Assembly (NCBI RefSeq): GCF_036227565.1
Contig: NZ_CP109460.1
Location: forward strand, 8,184,001 to 8,248,000
DNA length: 64,000 nucleotides
Origin: Streptomyces sp. NBC_01454
Lineage (GTDB): Bacteria; Actinomycetota; Actinomycetes; Streptomycetales; Streptomycetaceae
Direction of reading: 5' to 3'
Position 1 is the first letter of the stretch, and the number at the start of each line of letters is the position of its first letter. The notes under the pieces are model-generated. The model saw only the letters and a program-made list of their open reading frames with translations, searched no databases and was not told the DNA's origin. Made by a program: the position numbers and the translations under genes. Of the stretch, positions 13,047-24,660 are shown piece by piece.

Positions 13047-13988
13047 ATGGGGGCTGGACACGACCACGGGCGCACGCACGACGGGCAGCCCTCGACCGGT
13101 ACCGCGGCCGCGGCTCACAAGGGTCGGCTCCGTATCGCGCTCGCCATCACGCTCGGTGTGATGGCATTGGAGATCGTCGGCGGTGTGGTGACCGACTCGC
13201 TCGCGCTCATCGCGGACGCGGCGCACATGGCCACGGACGCGGTCGGACTCGCCATGGCGCTGCTGGCCATCCTTGTCGCGGGCCGGCCGGCGACGGCGAA
13301 CCGCACGTTCGGGTACGCCCGTACCGAGATCCTCGCGGCACTCGCCAACTGTCTGCTCCTCCTCGTCGTGGGCGGCTATCTGCTCGTCGAGGCCATCGGC
13401 CGGTTCCTCGACCCGGCCGAGACCCAGGGCGGTCTCACGATCGTCTTCGCCGTGGTCGGTCTGGCCGCCAACTTGGTGTCGCTGTCACTGTTGATGCGCG
13501 GACAGAAGGAGAGCCTCAACCTGCGCGGGGCCTATCTGGAGGTACTCGCGGACGCGCTCGGTTCGGTGGCGGTGCTGGTGTCCGCCACGGTCATCCTCAC
13601 GACCGGCTGGCAGCTCGCGGACCCGATCGCGTCCCTGGTCATCGGCCTGATGGTCGTCCCGCGTACCTGGAAGCTGCTGCGCGAGACGCTGAATGTGCTG
13701 CTGGAGGCGGCCCCTAAGGGCGTCGACATGGCCGAGGTCCGGGCCCGGATGATGGCGCTCCCCGGCGTGGCGGACGTGCACGATCTGCATGCCTGGACGA
13801 TCACCTCGGGGATGCCGGTGCTCTCCGCCCATGTGGTCGTGACCCAGGACACCCTGGACGAGGCGGGGCACGAGAAGGTGTTGCACGAACTGCAGGGCTG
13901 CCTGGGCCGGCGCTTCGATGTCAAGCACTGCACCTTCCAGCTGGAGCCCGCCGGCCATGCGGAGCACGAGGCGAAGCTCTGTCACTGA
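13047..13988 (+). CDS. Cation diffusion facilitator, CzcD/ZitB type
   Basis: This 313-residue protein starts at ATG 13047 with GGGAGG about 12 bp upstream. The His-rich N-terminus (GHDHGRTHDG) precedes six membrane helices. Metal sites are ADAAHMATDAVGL in helix 2 and EVLADALGSVAVL in helix 5. The cytosolic domain holds VHDLHAWTITSG, and the C-terminus has further His residues (GHAEHEAKLCH). The family exports Zn2+, Cd2+ or Co2+ in exchange for protons. It stands alone, with a possible metal-sensor half site upstream. Confidence 0.9.
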   Translation: MGAGHDHGRTHDGQPSTGTAAAAHKGRLRIALAITLGVMALEIVGGVVTDSLALIADAAHMATDAVGLAMALLAILVAGRPATANRTFGYARTEILAALANCLLLLVVGGYLLVEAIGRFLDPAETQGGLTIVFAVVGLAANLVSLSLLMRGQKESLNLRGAYLEVLADALGSVAVLVSATVILTTGWQLADPIASLVIGLMVVPRTWKLLRETLNVLLEAAPKGVDMAEVRARMMALPGVADVHDLHAWTITSGMPVLSAHVVVTQDTLDEAGHEKVLHELQGCLGRRFDVKHCTFQLEPAGHAEHEAKLCH

Positions 13989-14511
13989 GGTGAGACGGCT
14001 GACCCGTAACAGGTCCGCGCCGCACCCTCGCAGGACGGCACGCCCGCCGAGGCGCGCAGCACCACCCTCACTCAGCACTCAGGTCACCAGCGCTCAGGTC
14101 ACCGGCGCTCAGCTCATCGGCACCCAGGACTCCGGTCATCAGCCGCCGAAGCCTCTCCCATGCCGTGCGCCGCGGCGTGGCCGCGAAGCAACGAGCCGCA
14201 CCGTACGCCTGCCTGTTCTGCGCGCTGTTCGAAGCGATGGCACCGCATCACGACTTCGCCCCCTTGGCGAGACCGGCGGTAACCCCTTGGGGCATCTGGA
14301 TGGGTGTAAGGGGCGTTGCGTTGGTGCTGGTAGGCGCGGGGGAGTGCGCGCCTGGCGCGGTGTGGTTGTGCATATGTCCATGTTTTGTAACACCAAACCG
14401 GATTTCTTCTGCCAAGGGGTGACGAGGGGTCACTGTGTGGGGGCCCGGTCAAACCGGCCGGGTATCCGGTTTCCGGCAGCCCGTCATGGGCGCCGTATCC
14501 AGGGGGTTTCT
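13989..14511. other. Long non-coding stretch upstream of the lamin-tail gene
   Basis: No convincing gene is seen. At 14065-14120 an imperfect repeat of CTCAGGTCACC occurs. From 14370 to 14400 the DNA becomes AT-richer (CATATGTCCATGTTTTGTAA), which suggests a promoter. AAACCGG (14451-14457) and CCGGTTT (14466-14472) form an inverted repeat about 40 bp before the start of the next gene. A structured leader is possible, but I cannot match it to a known riboswitch. Confidence 0.4.
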
Positions 14512-15051
14512 GTGCTCCGTAACGCTTCACGCATCGCCGCAGCGGTTCTCGGCTCGGTCGCTCTTGCCGCCGCCGCTGCTCTCCCGGCCGCCGCGGCCGG
14601 CCATGGTCACCACGTTCCGGCCCCGCACCGCTTCCACTCCGCGGTGGCTCTCGGCGCGATCCAGTACGACAGCCCCGGGCGGGACGACCGTTCCAACCGG
14701 AGCCTGAATGCCGAGTACGTGACGGTGAAGAACACCGGCCGCATGGCGGTCAACCTCCGCGGCTGGACCCTGTCGGACCGCTCCGGCAACACCTACCGCT
14801 TCGGCAACGTCTGGCTGAACGGGCACAGCCAGGTCCGCGTCCACACCGGCATCGGCCGTGACACCCGCGGGGACCTGTACCAGGACCGCCGGAACTACAT
14901 CTGGGACAACACCGACACCGCCACCCTGCGCAACGACCACCGCCGGGTCGTCGACGTCGAAAGCTGGTCCCGCCACGGTGGCCACGGCCATGGTGGCCAC
15001 GGCCATGGTGGCCACGGCCACGGCCACGGTGGCCACGGTCACGGCCACTGA
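14512..15051 (+). CDS. Secreted lamin-tail-domain protein with His/Gly-rich C-terminus
   Basis: The GTG at 14512 follows AGGGGG and gives 179 residues. A signal peptide (LRNASRIAAAVLGSVALAAA, cleaved near AAAAG) is followed by an LTD-like immunoglobulin fold at about 45-150 with YDSPGRDDRSNRSLNAEYVT, NLRGWTLSDRSGNTY and YIWDNTDTATL. The last 26 or so residues are a HGGHGHG repeat. The LTD fold is known from secreted Streptomyces proteins of unclear role. The His-rich tail could bind divalent metal; this is inference. The gene is monocistronic, closed by a strong terminator. Confidence 0.8.
   Translation: MLRNASRIAAAVLGSVALAAAAALPAAAAGHGHHVPAPHRFHSAVALGAIQYDSPGRDDRSNRSLNAEYVTVKNTGRMAVNLRGWTLSDRSGNTYRFGNVWLNGHSQVRVHTGIGRDTRGDLYQDRRNYIWDNTDTATLRNDHRRVVDVESWSRHGGHGHGGHGHGGHGHGHGGHGHGH
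14972..15048 (+). repeat. Tandem GGCCACGG-type repeats encoding the His/Gly tail
   Basis: Repeated units of GGCCACGGCCATGGT and shortened GGCCACGGCCACGGT encode HGHGGHG. They are in frame with the lamin-tail gene and are likely to vary in copy number between strains. Confidence 0.7.
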
Positions 15052-15518: not shown

Positions 15519-15523
15519 ACCAG
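15519..15523. repeat. Left copy of 5-bp target duplication (ACCAG)
   Basis: ACCAG directly abuts the left 342-bp arm, and the same five bases abut the right arm at 17681-17685 in direct orientation, as expected after a transposition event. Confidence 0.6.
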
Positions 15524-15865
15524 TGTGACTGAGTTCTTCAGATGGCCCGTGAGCGGTTGAGTTGGCCCGGCTGAGCGTCGTAGTCGGCCTGTGCGTGTTC
15601 AATCGTGGGTAAGTGCGTGTTTCTGATCCATCGCACCAGTTATGCGACATCCCGCGGGTTCGTCCTGGCTTTCATCTCCCGTTGCCGCAGGTCAGCCCGG
15701 CAGGCGGGAGCGATGGATCCGCATAGATCATGATGGACCTTCGGGATTCCTGAAGAACCATCATGATCCCTCCATAGACGCACAGGCCGAGGGCGACGAG
15801 GTGCCTGGTAAGGCCCCATGCCGAGGAACCGAGGGGCACGGCGAACTCGCGGGATGTTGCACACG
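15524..15865 (+). repeat. Left 342-bp inverted-repeat arm
   Basis: The arm starts TGTGACTGAGTTCTTCAG and ends GATGTTGCACACG. It matches the reverse complement of 17339-17680 except for three single-base differences that I could see (one in TGATCC/TGAACC, one in GGATCC/GGGTCC, one in GACGAGG/GACGGGG). It has no open frame with a recognisable protein. Confidence 0.85.
15641..15865. repeat. MITE-like subunit nested in the arm
   Basis: Inside the arm, a 225-bp segment has its own imperfect terminal inverted repeats: TATGCGACATCCCGCGGGTT at one end and, on the other strand, TGTGCAACATCCCGCGAGTT at the other (about 20 of 24 matches). At its centre, ATCATGATGG and CCATCATGAT form a palindrome around about 22 bp. 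A second copy is at 17339-17563 in the right arm. The bases TCGCACCAGT precede both this subunit and the outer arm. Confidence 0.55.
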
Positions 15866-16122
15866 GCGGGGGCGATGACGGCAGCCCGCGGATGCCGCTG
15901 ATGTCGGCTATCACCAAGGACCTGATGCTGCGCGGCTTCGCCACGCTGCACACCCCGGACCAGATCGAGGAGTGGAACGCGCGGTTCGGCCCGTGGCTGC
16001 GGGAGGGACGCAACGTGTTCCTGCACACGGTCGTCGAGGGCGGCACCGGTCAGCTCCCGGCGGCGTGCGCCGCCCTGCTCGACCGCACGTACAGCAGCAC
16101 GATGCTGGTGCGCATGAGCTGA
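15866..16122 (+). pseudogene. 3' fragment of an NADP-dependent oxidoreductase gene
   Basis: The frame reads straight out of the left arm and encodes about 77 residues from 15892: ITKDLMLRGFATLHTPDQIE, then WLREGRNVFLHTVVEGG and YSSTMLVRMS. This matches the C-terminal end of zinc-independent MDR quinone/alkenal reductases (MLRGF... G.WLR.GR....TVVEG...GKMLVR). The nucleotide-binding domain is absent, so the gene is dead. The arm boundary falls inside the gene, which suggests that the cassette captured adjacent DNA along with the glycosylase gene. Confidence 0.6.
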
Positions 16123-16212
16123 GCGGCATCGCAGTACGGCGGTGGCGTCCCGGGCGCGGTCCGAGGCAGCCACCGTGTTTTCGTGAGTGGACACGAGGAA
16201 GGGAATCCCGTC

Positions 16213-17319
16213 GTGGTGACAGGAGACGTGAAGGTGCTGGACCATCGGGCGCTCAACCGGAGCCTACTGGCCCGGCAGTTGCTGCTGGAGCGGTCCGCGA
16301 TGCCAGCGGGGCGGGCGGTCGCGCACCTGGTGGGCATGCAGGCACAGGCGCCGAACCCGCCCTACATTGGCCTGTGGACGCGGCTCGCCGGCTTCCGCAT
16401 CGAGGACCTGGCCTCCCTCGTCAGGAACCGCGAGGTGGTCCGGGTGGGTCTGATGCGCGGCACGATCCACCTGGTCACGGCGGACGACTGCGTCGCACTG
16501 CGCCCCGTCCTGCAGGGCGCCCTGCGGCAGGGGCTGAAGGGCGCCTTCGGGCGCAAGCTCGAAGGGCTCGACGTCGAGAAGGTGGCCGAGCTGGGCCGCG
16601 AGCTGGTCGAGCGGGAGCCGCTCACGCTGGGCGGCCTGGGCACCCTGCTCGCCGAGCGGTGGCCGGACCGGGACCCCTTCGCCCTCGCCAACGCCGTGCG
16701 CAACCTGGTACCGCTCGTGCAGGTGCCGCCGCGCGGGCTGTGGGGCGAGAGCGGGCAGGCCGTGCACACCAGCGCCGAGGCGTGGCTCGGCCGGCCCGTC
16801 GCCGGGCTGGCGGCACCGGACCTGATGGTCGAGCGCTACCTGGCGGCCTTCGGGCCGGCCACGGTCAAGGACATCCAGGTCTGGTCCGGCATGACCCGGC
16901 TCGCCGACGCGGTGAACCGGCTCCGGCCGCGGCTGGCGGTCTTCCGCGACGAGAACGGCCGCGAACTGCTCGACCTGCCGGAGGCCCCCCGCCCCGACGC
17001 GGACACCCCCGCCCCGGTGCGCTTCCTGCCGGAGTTCGACAACATCCTGCTCTCCCACGCCGACCGAGCCCGCATCCTCACCGAGGAGCAGCGCAAGCTC
17101 GTCTTCACGCGGAACGGGCTGATCAGGTCGACGTTCCTGGTGGACGGGTTCGTGGCGGGCGTGTGGCGCGTCGAGCAGACGCGCGGTGCCGCCGTCCTCG
17201 TCCTGGAGCCCTTCGGTACCCTGCGTGCCGGGGACCGCGCCGCGCTCACCGAGGAGGGCGGCCGGCTGCTCGCGTTCGCCACGGCCTCCGCCGCCTCGCG
17301 CGAAGTCCGCTTCGCCTGA
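16213..17319 (+). CDS. AlkZ-like winged-helix DNA glycosylase (HTH_42 family)
   Basis: The GTG at 16213 (GAGGAAGGGA upstream) gives 368 residues; a GTG at 16183 is an alternative. The protein has the tandem winged-helix layout of the HTH_42/AlkZ family. The catalytic Q-x-Q motif is present near the N-terminus in HLVGMQAQAPNPPYIGLWTR. Downstream come VGLMRGTIHLVTADDC, then GLWGESGQAVHTSAEAW and FLPEFDNILLSHADR. Characterised members unhook interstrand crosslinks or remove bulky alkyl adducts; AlkZ gives azinomycin self-resistance in its producer. It is the only complete gene between the two long inverted repeats and no toxin biosynthesis gene is near, so it looks like a mobile DNA-repair or resistance gene. 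Confidence 0.82.
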   Translation: MVTGDVKVLDHRALNRSLLARQLLLERSAMPAGRAVAHLVGMQAQAPNPPYIGLWTRLAGFRIEDLASLVRNREVVRVGLMRGTIHLVTADDCVALRPVLQGALRQGLKGAFGRKLEGLDVEKVAELGRELVEREPLTLGGLGTLLAERWPDRDPFALANAVRNLVPLVQVPPRGLWGESGQAVHTSAEAWLGRPVAGLAAPDLMVERYLAAFGPATVKDIQVWSGMTRLADAVNRLRPRLAVFRDENGRELLDLPEAPRPDADTPAPVRFLPEFDNILLSHADRARILTEEQRKLVFTRNGLIRSTFLVDGFVAGVWRVEQTRGAAVLVLEPFGTLRAGDRAALTEEGGRLLAFATASAASREVRFA

Positions 17320-17338
17320 TGCCCGGCCATGCGCACGG

Positions 17339-17680
17339 CGTGTGCAACATCCCGCGAGTTCGCCGTGCCCCTCGGTTCCTCGGCATGGGGCCTTACCAGG
17401 CACCCCGTCGCCCTCGGCCTGTGCGTCTATGGAGGGATCATGATGGTTCTTCAGGAATCCCGAAGGTCCATCATGATCTATGCGGACCCATCGCTCCCGC
17501 CTGCCGGGCTGACCTGCGGCAACGGGAGATGAAAGCCAGGACGAACCCGCGGGATGTCGCATAACTGGTGCGATGGTTCAGAAACACGCACTTACCCACG
17601 ATTGAACACGCACAGGCCGACTACGACGCTCAGCCGGGCCAACTCAACCGCTCACGGGCCATCTGAAGAACTCAGTCACA
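17339..17680 (-). repeat. Right 342-bp inverted-repeat arm
   Basis: This is the reverse-complement partner of 15524-15865, about 99% identical. It starts 20 bp after the glycosylase stop codon. Confidence 0.85.
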
Positions 17681-17685
17681 ACCAG
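17681..17685. repeat. Right copy of 5-bp target duplication (ACCAG)
   Basis: Direct repeat of 15519-15523, immediately outside the right arm. Confidence 0.6.
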
Positions 17686-21712: not shown

Positions 21713-22143
21713 AAGGGAGGCGTCGACGGTAGCCCCGCAATGCCGGGGATCTGTGAATGTCTGCGTCCAGCCGCCGAAGGACTCGTTCGAGGTGCCGGAG
21801 GATCCATCCGGCGATGGCCCCAGGGCGGCTTGGCGGTCACCGGCCGCCGGTGAGGTGCATGACAATGGCCGGATTGGTTCGGCTTGTTGTGCCGCGCCCC
21901 CGGACCCCACTGACCTCCGCATACTCCCGCACGCCGCGGCGGGATGTGCCACAGCCGGGGCGCACGGAGGCACCACTATGCGCCGTCTGCTTCGATCCGG
22001 GGTTTGTGCCTTCTGGTCGCGAGGCCGCCCCCTTTCACGCCGTACCGGCGTGCCCTTCCTGGCTGTTTGGCTGTCCTTGCGCACGGCCACCTTGCTCACC
22101 ACCGGCCGTTTCCTTCACCTCTGTTCACCTCCCGGGAGGGAAT
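21713..22143. other. Upstream region of the encapsulin/MIB operon
   Basis: No intact gene is visible. On the minus strand, about 21722-21796 reads [17 protein letters not shown], which resembles the C-terminal part of IS21-family IstB helper ATPases, so a tiny IS remnant is possible. From 21960 on, the operon promoter should lie within about 180 bp, but I see no consensus boxes. The encapsulin frame is open upstream of its GTG, without homology. Confidence 0.35.
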
Positions 22144-23586
22144 GTGTCCGTACCGGACAGTGTCACCGGTTCCGCCACCGAAGAGCCCGGTCTCGCACCA
22201 CCCCCGCACAGCGCGCCCACCAGCCTCAGCACACAGGCCGCGCGCCACCTGGCGACCACCACCAAGTCCGAGCCCCAGATGCAGGCCATCACCTCGCGGT
22301 GGCTGCTGAAGATGCTGCCCTGGGTGGACGTCAAGGGCGGGACCTACCGGGTCAACCGGCGTCTGCAACTCCGCGTCGGCCGAGGCCGTGTCCAGTTCGA
22401 GCACAACGGCGCCGACGACATCAAGGTGATCCCGCAGACGCTCACCGAACTGCCCGCCCTGCGCGGCTATGACGACACCGAGGTCCTCAAGGAGCTCGCC
22501 GGCCGCTTCCGTGTCCGGGAGGTCCGGGCCGGCCAGACGCTCTTCGAGGAAGGGCAGCCGGTCACCGAGGCCTATCTCGTCGTCCACGGTCGCTTCGCCC
22601 GCTACGCCGTCGGCAAGTACGGCGACGAAGAGGCCATCGGCGTCGTCACGGACGGCGACCAGATGGGGGACGAGGCGATCGGCCGGCCCGGCCCCCTGTG
22701 GCTGAGCTCGGTCCGCGCCGAATCCGCCGGCGTGGTGATGGTGCTGCCGTGGGACGTGGTCCAGGAGGTCACCGACCGGGCGCCGTCCCTGGCCGCGCAC
22801 CTCGCCGCGTACGCGGAACGGCAGCAGCGCCCCATGAACCGCAAGGGAGAGGCGGAGGTGCCGGTAGCGGCGGGGCACGTCGGCGAGCCGACGCTGTCCG
22901 GCGGCTTCGTCGACTACGACCTGGCGCCCCGCGAGTACGAACTCTCCCTGACCCAGACCGTGTTGCGGGTCCACAGCCGGGTCGCCGACCTCTACAACGA
23001 GCCCATGGACCAGACCCAGCAGCAACTCCGGCTGACCGTGGAGGAGATCCGCGAACGCCAGGAGTGGGAACTGGTCAACAACCGGGAGTTCGGGCTGCTG
23101 CACAACGCCGACTACGGCCAGCGCATCAGCACCTACACCGGCGCGCCCACCCCCGACGACATGGACGAACTGCTGTCCATGCGCCGCAAGACGCGGCTGT
23201 TCCTGGCGCACCCGAAGGCGATCGCCGCCTTCTTCCGCCAGTGCAACAAGCGCGGTCTGGTGCCGGGCACGGCGAGCGTCGACGGGCACGACGTTCCCGC
23301 GTGGCGCGGTGTCCCGATCTTCCCGTGCGGCAAGATCCCGATCAGCCAGGCCCACACCACCAGCATCCTTGCGCTGCGTACCGGGGAAGCGGACCAGGGA
23401 GTCGTCGGCCTGCACCAGACCGGCATTCCCGAGGAGTACCAGCCCGGCCTCAACGTCCGGTTCATGGGCATCGACCAGGCCGCCGTCATCAAGTACCTCG
23501 TCACCGCCTACTACTCGGCGGCCATCCTCGTGCCCGACGCGGTCGGAGTCCTGGAGAACGTCCAGATCGGCCGCAGCGCCGACTGA
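22144..23586 (+). CDS. Family 2B encapsulin shell protein with cyclic-nucleotide-binding domain
   Basis: The GTG at 22144 follows GGGAGGG and gives 480 residues. An N-terminal arm and the start of the HK97-like fold ([20 protein letters not shown]) are followed by an inserted cNMP-binding domain at about 110-215 ([40 protein letters not shown]). The rest is the HK97 shell domain ([40 protein letters not shown]). EshA-like proteins of this family form nanocompartments, and terpene cyclases of the 2-methylisoborneol pathway are known cargo. The next gene, 15 bp downstream, is that cargo. Older annotations call such proteins cyclic nucleotide-binding or Crp-like; the HK97 part argues against a transcription factor. 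Confidence 0.88.
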
Positions 23587-23601
23587 CAGTGGAGTACGTA
23601 C

Positions 23602-24660
23602 ATGAGCACCTCCCCGAACGACACCGCCGCGTATGCGCTGCCCGGCCCGCCGAACCTCGTCCGTAGCCTGCGGAACCGGCGCAGTACCACCGTGCCTGGT
23701 CTGAGGTTCCGGCCCGCCGCCCCCGTCGACCCCGCCAAGGTCGAGGAGATCGACCGCCGGCTGGAGAGCTGGGCCCGACAACTGGACCTCTTCCCCGCAC
23801 AGTGGAGCGGGGACTTCACCCAGTTCAAGTTCGGCCGGGCCGTCGCCCTGCAGCACCCCGGCGCTGCCGACCTCGAACGCCTCACCGTCGCGGGCAAGTT
23901 GCTGCTGGCCGAGAACATCGTCGACAACTGCTACTGCGAGGAAGACGAAGGCAAAGGCGGTGCGCACCGCGGTCTGGGCGGTCGGCTGATCATGGCCCAG
24001 TCAGCCCTCGACCCCTTCCACGGCACCGCTGAAACGGAAGAGCAGTGGCGTCGCGGCGTGCAGAGCGACGGACCCCTGCGCTCGTACCACTGGGCCCTCA
24101 AGGACTACGCGGCCGTTGCCACCCCCAGCCAGGCCGACCGGTTCGTGCACGACATCGCACGGCTGCACCTCGGCTACCTCGCGGAGGCCTCCTGGGCGGA
24201 GACCCGGCATGTGCCGGAAGTCTGGGAGTACTTGGTGATGCGGCAGTTCAACAACTTCCGCCCCTGCCTGTCCATCGTGGACACGGTGGACGGCTATGAA
24301 CTGCCCGAAGCGCTCTACGCCCGCCCCGAAATCCAGCGGATCACCAGCCTGGCCTGCAACGCCACGACCATCGTCAATGACCTGTACTCCTTCACCAGGG
24401 AACTGGCCAGCGACCCGACCCACCTCAACCTGCCCCAAGTGGTCGCCGCCAACGACAAGAACGGTCTGAAGGCCGCTTACCTCAAGAGCGTCGAGATCCA
24501 CAACCAGATCATGGAAGCGTTCGAGACGGAGTCCGCCCCGCTGTCCGCCGCCTCGCCCCTCGTCGAGAGGTATGTGCGGGGTCTGACCGACTGGGTGTCC
24601 GGCAACCACGAGTGGCACGCCACCAACACCGAGCGCTACCAGCTGCCCGACTACTGGTAA
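23602..24660 (+). CDS. 2-methylisoborneol synthase-like terpene cyclase, encapsulin cargo
   Basis: The 352-residue protein starts at ATG 23602. It matches class I 2-methylisoborneol synthases over the catalytic domain (YLAEASWAETRHVPEVWEYL, MRQFNNFRPC). The second metal motif is intact: N259, S263 and E267 in NDLYSFTRE. The first reads D108-N-C-Y-C-E-E-D instead of the usual DDCYCED. The N-terminal extension before the domain is only about 35 residues (ALPGPPNLVRSLRNRR), whereas characterised enzymes have a Pro/Ala-rich extension of 100 or more. In Family 2B systems this disordered region targets the enzyme to the shell. The expected reaction is cyclisation of 2-methyl-GPP; product identity is not certain with the altered motif. 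Confidence 0.87.
   Translation: MSTSPNDTAAYALPGPPNLVRSLRNRRSTTVPGLRFRPAAPVDPAKVEEIDRRLESWARQLDLFPAQWSGDFTQFKFGRAVALQHPGAADLERLTVAGKLLLAENIVDNCYCEEDEGKGGAHRGLGGRLIMAQSALDPFHGTAETEEQWRRGVQSDGPLRSYHWALKDYAAVATPSQADRFVHDIARLHLGYLAEASWAETRHVPEVWEYLVMRQFNNFRPCLSIVDTVDGYELPEALYARPEIQRITSLACNATTIVNDLYSFTRELASDPTHLNLPQVVAANDKNGLKAAYLKSVEIHNQIMEAFETESAPLSAASPLVERYVRGLTDWVSGNHEWHATNTERYQLPDYW

Follow-up and report, generated by a model that had tools for sequence, protein, structure and literature searches.

A DNA-repair gene that lies between long inverted repeats, with no transposase beside it, raises the question of what brought it there. This arrangement occurs in a 64,000-nucleotide stretch of the Streptomyces sp. 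NBC_01454 genome (NZ_CP109460.1), which is the whole stretch that was analysed and is called the window below. Within positions 15519-17685 an inverted-repeat search returned one pair, 350 nt long, 98% complementary and 1457 nt apart, and base-by-base alignment resolved it into two arms of 342 bp, which differ only at arm positions 104, 194 and 276 and cease to match from position 343 on. The arms (15524-15865 and 17339-17680) enclose 1473 bp, giving a unit of 2157 bp (15524-17680), and ACCAG stands directly outside each of them (15519-15523 and 17681-17685) as a 5-bp duplication. A preliminary description of the locus had given the equal arms, the three mismatches, the cargo length and the flanking ACCAG, and all of these are confirmed. 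The parts of the unit are as follows.

15519..15523, no strand: left copy of the 5-bp target duplication ACCAG (sequence)
15524..15865, + strand: left 342-bp arm (inverted-repeat search, arm alignment)
15524..15547, + strand: left end repeat 1 (TGTGACTGAGTTCTTCAGATGGCC), presumed TnsB site (sequence; family profile)
15550..15567, + strand: left end repeat 2 (sequence)
15572..15589, + strand: left end repeat 3 (sequence)
15641..15863, + strand: left copy of a nested MITE-like repeat of about 221 bp (separate copies elsewhere without the outer end)
15879..16122, + strand: oxidoreductase gene without its 5′ part, 3′ tail only (a full oxidoreductase-alkZ locus matches its DNA at 81%; open frame)
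16183..17319, + strand: complete gene for an AlkZ-like (winged-helix, QxQ) DNA glycosylase of 378 aa (Pfam, structure match)
17339..17680, - strand: right 342-bp arm, inverted (inverted-repeat search, arm alignment)
17341..17563, - strand: right copy of the nested MITE-like repeat (repeat search)
17615..17632, - strand: right end repeat 3 (sequence)
17637..17654, - strand: right end repeat 2 (sequence)
17657..17680, - strand: right end repeat 1, presumed TnsB site (family profile; sequence)
17681..17685, no strand: right copy of the 5-bp target duplication ACCAG (sequence)

The statement of the preliminary description that no transposase lies inside the unit stands, as tblastn with two sets of TnsA, TnsB, TnsC and TniQ proteins gave no match in the 64-kb window. 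The unit thus has a passenger gene between inverted ends, the organization of a mobile insertion cassette (MIC). Its termini read TGT...ACA, each end carries an array of three repeats that are predicted from their pattern to be bound by a transposase, and ACCAG is a target duplication of the Tn7-like length of 5 bp. Since tnsB, tnsC and tniQ are absent from it, the unit can be at most a non-autonomous derivative of a Tn7-like transposon. An empty site with a single ACCAG, for which the preliminary description had proposed to look, was not found: no sequence spanning the empty junction of this locus occurred in 81 genomes, the window's own included. Elsewhere in the window, a Type 2A encapsulin shell protein (SrpI-like, with a cNMP-binding domain) is followed by a terpene synthase gene (21757-24660), and a Lamin-tail-domain protein with a Gly-His repeat tail at its end (14380-15051) lies beside a cation efflux gene (13047-13988).

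The cargo protein matches Pfam PF06224 (3.7e-89) over the full-length domain, and its QAQ aligns with the QAQ of the crystal structure of AlkZ, 5uuj (1.6e-9), so that the complete AlkZ-like gene with a Q-x-Q motif proposed earlier is borne out and the protein is predicted to be a DNA glycosylase of this group. Unlike these features, its overall similarity to AlkZ of the azinomycin producers is low (41 bits), and searches of solved structures and of the AlkZ literature returned nothing on its substrate. The oxidoreductase tail had also been recognized correctly, with a frame that is open to a stop at 16120-16122. AlkZ-like DNA is common (a match somewhere in 192 of 199 genomes), and the cargo aligns with a chromosomal oxidoreductase-alkZ pair in one genome (G065) at 81% over 1441 of 1457 bases and, in parts, with another (G193) at 76-79%. 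Both loci are without the ends described here, and the cassette therefore looks like a piece caught from an ordinary oxidoreductase-alkZ locus.

Among the 72,556 records of a plasmid collection, only the linear plasmid NZ_CP129127.1 of Streptomyces sp. P9-2B-2 carries the whole unit. The two copies differ at 8 of 2157 bp and encode identical AlkZ proteins, their flanks are unrelated, and identity stops at the element ends. A near-identical unit in unrelated DNA means that the unit has moved, and its recurrence in a second strain with different flanks argues that the structure in the window is not due to chance. The earlier proposal of a mobile unit inserted with a 5-bp duplication is supported; against it, this second copy is without a duplication (CCAGC / TTACG).

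The arm proved to consist of two parts. The outer ~66 bp form a transposon end of three 18-24-bp repeats (TGTGACTGAGTTCTTCAGATGGCC, TGAGCGGTTGAGTTGGCC and TGAGCGTCGTAGTCGGCC), and a distinct MITE-like repeat makes up the inner ~221 bp; each is found elsewhere without the other. In the plasmid collection the arm matched 22 records, with the full arm (cover at least 80%) in one of them; the records matched by the outer 57-68 bp were not those matched by arm 118-340, in its inner part. Copies of the inner repeat occur in 12 of 199 genomes of the genus at E≤0.001, several of these matches being short, and their flanks differ. At arm position 34 the window copy has T in its two arms and the plasmid copy has G in its two, and the plasmid arms are identical to each other over 342 bp. 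The arms of one copy thus change together, which suggests that exchange between them keeps them alike.

The preliminary description had left two routes open, movement in trans or two inserted copies. In the second, two inserted copies of an independent 342-bp element would carry the alkZ segment as a composite transposon, which we consider very unlikely. The arms are inverted and nearly identical, as this route demands, but the whole arm was seen solely within the two copies of the alkZ unit; the window's own genome has it at this locus only, and neither that genome, the plasmid collection nor the loci fetched contained a solo 342-bp arm, so that there is no sign of each flanking repeat being mobile by itself. 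Moreover, outer end and inner repeat occur separately, and ACCAG is duplicated outside the pair, not outside each arm. Slightly less probable again is that the nested 221-bp repeats are the active ends and that the transposase of the MITE's parent moved the unit: two inverted copies do bracket the cargo and the repeat is itself dispersed, but it is at the outer ends, and not at those of the MITE, that ACCAG lies and that identity with the P9-2B-2 copy stops. Movement in trans, the first route, is probable on comparative evidence.

The elements from which the enzymes for such movement might come were reached through a TniQ remnant (PF06527, 1e-21) at one locus (L047), which led to Tn7-like loci whose ends have the common layout TGTGAC-N8/9-TnAGTTGGC. 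In Streptomyces sp. CB02009 (L195) a degraded tnsB-tnsC-tniQ set lies beside such an end, and a search with its TnsB piece matched 54 of 392 genomes at E≤1e-20. It yielded three autonomous elements that have both family ends and a perfect 5-bp duplication, namely L249 (7925 bp, GCCAC), L250 (11126 bp, AGTGC) and L252 (8346 bp, ATCAG). All three have tnsA, tnsB and tnsC; tniQ is present in two of them and was not detected in L252. Another Tn7-like element (L251) had one family end found. In L249, TnsA belongs to NCBIfam TnsA_like_Actin (5.7e-41), TnsB matches TnsB in the PDB (7.2e-8) and no Pfam model at E≤0.001, and TnsC and TniQ match Pfam TniB and TniQ; the invariant TnsB residues are D222, D324 and E360. 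Further genes of L249 encode a NUDIX protein and an esterase, the latter 94% identical to the product of the sole gene called in a stand-alone transposase-less cassette (L217), and a transposase-less element with tnsA remnants directly adjoins L249. Family elements also stand in tandem beside autonomous ones (L249, 11198-13104; L252, 8396-10230).

The window's own genome yielded no intact element whose ends match. Its Tn7-like TnsABC-TniQ locus (L170, C1:1805001-1825000) is bounded by diverged outer ends (TGTGACCGGGATTCTTAGTTTGCGG) and contains one partial family end, and its TnsB shares 64% identity with a piece of the TnsB of the family. A Pfam search for TniB was unspecific (197 of 199 genomes matched), and the 40 stretches fetched from it held almost no family ends. 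Two other parentages were dropped because TnsA lies beside the family TnsB: Tn5053/Tn402, which the TniQ remnant had suggested, and IS21, to which we took the terminal repeats to point. Among incidental observations, a sequence close to TCGAACACGTGTTCGA, which we take to be the actinobacterial LexA (SOS) box, lies ~40 bp away from L249 (left flank of 3268) and from L250 (right flank of 13782), and the start of a related Tn7-like element (L156, 5196) lies 79 bp away from the argC 5′ end, its cargo being a large helicase-type protein (named by eye).

The window unit shows the same terminal repeat pattern as L249, L250 and L252. Its ends, TGTGAC...GTCACA with three repeats at each end and a match to the family end profile at 15524-15591 (1.5e-18), are thus common to elements encoding TnsA, TnsB, TnsC and TniQ. 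We therefore favour, with a probability of roughly 0.88, the reading that the window unit is a non-autonomous cassette of a Streptomyces Tn7-like family, moved in trans; it explains a DNA-repair gene between long inverted repeats. The preliminary description had proposed to look for the arm elsewhere, for other cargo and for an intact relative with a transposase, and all three were found for the outer ~66 bp of the arm.

The 77-bp end matched 32 of 295 genomes of the genus, and 14 candidate paired elements were read. Four have a perfect 5-bp duplication (L047, L051, L052, L015), and the other ten have no exact duplication at zero offset, some of their partner ends being uncertain. A scan of 84,980 species genomes with TGTGACTGAGCGNTTSAGTTGGCC gave 43 stretches with the exact end pattern, from genera given in the record titles as Streptomyces, Kitasatospora, Streptacidiphilus, Actinacidiphila and Kibdelosporangium; one locus (L186) is the same as L051 of the first set. 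Paired inverted ends were present in 19 of the 43, with a perfect 5-bp duplication at zero offset in 11 pairs and no exact one at that offset in eight; by our arithmetic a chance 5-base match at 70% GC is expected in ~0.2% of pairs.

The cassettes of the first set carry RibD_C, isochorismatase, DinB, an aromatic-ring monooxygenase, or an aldo/keto reductase with an AAA protein, and those of the genome scan a methyltransferase, an MFS transporter, SUKH, an esterase, a rhamnosidase with a transport operon, or proteins without a Pfam match. Since these sister cassettes carry unrelated genes, the repair role of the window cassette is incidental, and the earlier suggestion of a new kind of mobile DNA-repair cassette is not supported in that wording. 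One cargo recurs between unrelated 600-bp flanks in four cases: RibD_C (L049, L176, L196; 94.5-97.5% identical), the methyltransferase (L181, L193, L203), a 232-aa protein (L201, L206) and isochorismatase (L052, L059). The three RibD_C cassettes, L203 and L059 have no exact duplication. The least probable alternative is that a degenerate Tn7-like element underwent decay where it lay and was spread as part of larger DNA segments, with no cassette movement, for which the absence of a duplication from the P9-2B-2 copy and of a matching autonomous element from the host would speak, but identity with the plasmid copy ends at the element ends, the window copy has a perfect duplication, and sister cassettes with one cargo sit in unrelated flanks.

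At the 16 elements that bear duplications, the fold averaged -19.3 kcal/mol against a background of -16.1 (resampling p 0.007), with p 0.0003 for shift-tolerant and p 0.43 for strict symmetry. A hairpin target for insertion is not claimed, as the flanks include tpg terminators and the ends of other transposons. As a sign of gene disruption, a frame that spans the junction and has coding bias appeared in one of 16 joined flanks (L179, doubtful), L217 entering this test with a left flank of only 100 bp. Near the right end of the chromosome in the window's genome, two 174-bp elements with family ends (L061, 1559-1732 and 3242-3415) have no room for a gene, and a broken tpg copy lies nearby.

The gene found ahead of family ends is annotated as an XRE regulator and is Tpg, the telomere terminal protein, which caps linear chromosomes: three tested proteins match NF047541 (5.1e-92, 6.2e-87 and 3.6e-90), and in the one tested Tap lies upstream (NF047542, 1030 bits). 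At 11 distinct loci, selected by their ends, the element has its first base at position 31-35 past the stop of tpg (L012, L016, L186, L029, L043, L189, L190, L195, L206, L211 and L215, the end of L016 being degenerate; the duplicates L051/L018 and L267 were left out). As these loci had been found by their ends, a reverse survey was started from tpg genes. The gene was sought in 131 genomes, 94 of which were above the cut-off, and the first 60 listed full-length matches were taken with up to 12 kb downstream of each, 575,614 bases in all. The end profile matched at base 30-35 after the stop in eight of these 60, two of them being L332 (degenerate), from the genome of the window itself, and L353, from G085, which was known already. 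The other seven profile matches in the 575,614 bases all fell in three of the same eight loci, in tandem with the first. The remaining 52 surveyed tpg genes had no family end by profile, some of them having weaker look-alikes. Judged by eye, several unoccupied copies have a terminator-like hairpin behind tpg, and the insertion point falls in its region. Family elements stand in tandem behind tpg in L381 (35-4363) and L382 (33-4313+).

A second Tn7-like end type (TGAGCCGAAGCACGATAGTTGTCACA...) also starts ~33 bases behind tpg (L014, L056, L061, L181, L337, L339 and L371). It was located at 2669 in L014, 1034 in L061, 4416 in L181 and 7037 in L257; in the first three it is followed by a family cassette in tandem, and on contig L257 it is joined to TnsABC-TniQ. 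A search of the window placed its copy away from tpg, and a tpg search over all loci likewise put L249, L250 and L252 away from tpg in the stretches fetched. As neither these three relatives nor the window copy is at tpg, homing by TniQ is something that we infer.

Under the favoured reading, an autonomous relative would supply the TnsA/TnsB transposase, which would bind the end repeats in trans, and the cassette would move by cut and paste. Its cargo, enclosed by two 221-bp MITE-like repeats in inverted orientation, would have been picked up from an ordinary oxidoreductase-alkZ locus, and exchange between the arms would keep them alike. Many family members appear to home to the tpg 3′ end, presumably through TniQ, and the window copy would then be an off-site insertion. 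A wider and tentative picture, to which we give somewhat less than even odds, is that Streptomyces linear replicons exchange genes by Tn7-like transposons in an integron-like manner. The TniQ-marked 3′ end of tpg, a gene of both linear chromosomes and linear plasmids, would serve as a shared safe harbour, where single-gene cassettes of resistance, repair or metabolism type, for which autonomous elements provide the transposase, stack in tandem and from which they occasionally scatter, as the window alkZ cassette would have done.

Single-gene cassettes with Tn7-like ends that stack behind tpg are of more interest than the alkZ cassette alone, and the family shows single genes mobilised by Tn7-type ends. 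A tpg site, if borne out, would explain how one element can reach linear plasmids as well as chromosomes; it would also provide a natural safe site for the engineering of antibiotic producers and a testable new TniQ target.

The MICs of qnrD/qnrS2 and of Xanthomonas are built on IS or Tn3-type ends. The window unit resembles those of qnrD/qnrS2 (PMC3913671, PMC5444012, in the parts available) and of Xanthomonas (likewise in part) in having a passenger gene between inverted repeats, no transposase and presumed movement in trans; unlike these MICs, its family has Tn7-like ends, a recurrent position at tpg and tandem arrays. The unit is also like the Actinobacteria-dominated Tn7-like clade 2, called uncharacterised in the available part of PMC8649781, in its end arrays of transposase sites, its 5-bp duplication and the tnsA/tnsB/tnsC/tniQ of its autonomous relatives, and unlike it in having no tns gene. 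In that survey of Tn7-like cargo, as far as the part available describes its pipeline, tnsB was the minimal requirement, so that transposase-less elements of the window type would be left out; surveys based on tnsB are blind to cassettes without tns genes. The main text of PMC8649781, in the part available, has no mention of telomer-, tpg, terminal protein, non-autonomous or Streptomyces, and that of PMC10293859 none of telomer-, tpg or non-autonomous. In the literature searched, with subscription literature mostly outside its scope, we found no Tn7-type family homing to tpg, no Streptomyces MITE linked to Tn7 and, for Tn7-like non-autonomous Streptomyces transposons, solely a CRISPR review, seen in part.

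The transposon Tn7 has its attTn7 site behind glmS. The role of TnsD is described in PMC10293859, and that of Tpg as telomere terminal protein in PMC3572947, both sources being available in part. Like Tn7 at attTn7, the family inserts at a short, constant distance downstream of the 3′ end of a single conserved gene; unlike Tn7, that gene is tpg, the telomere terminal protein gene of linear replicons, and most of the tpg occupants found are cassettes without tns genes. Passenger genes bounded by inverted repeats, with no transposase, are familiar from other transposon families; the Tn7-like family itself and the link between it and tpg seem to be new.
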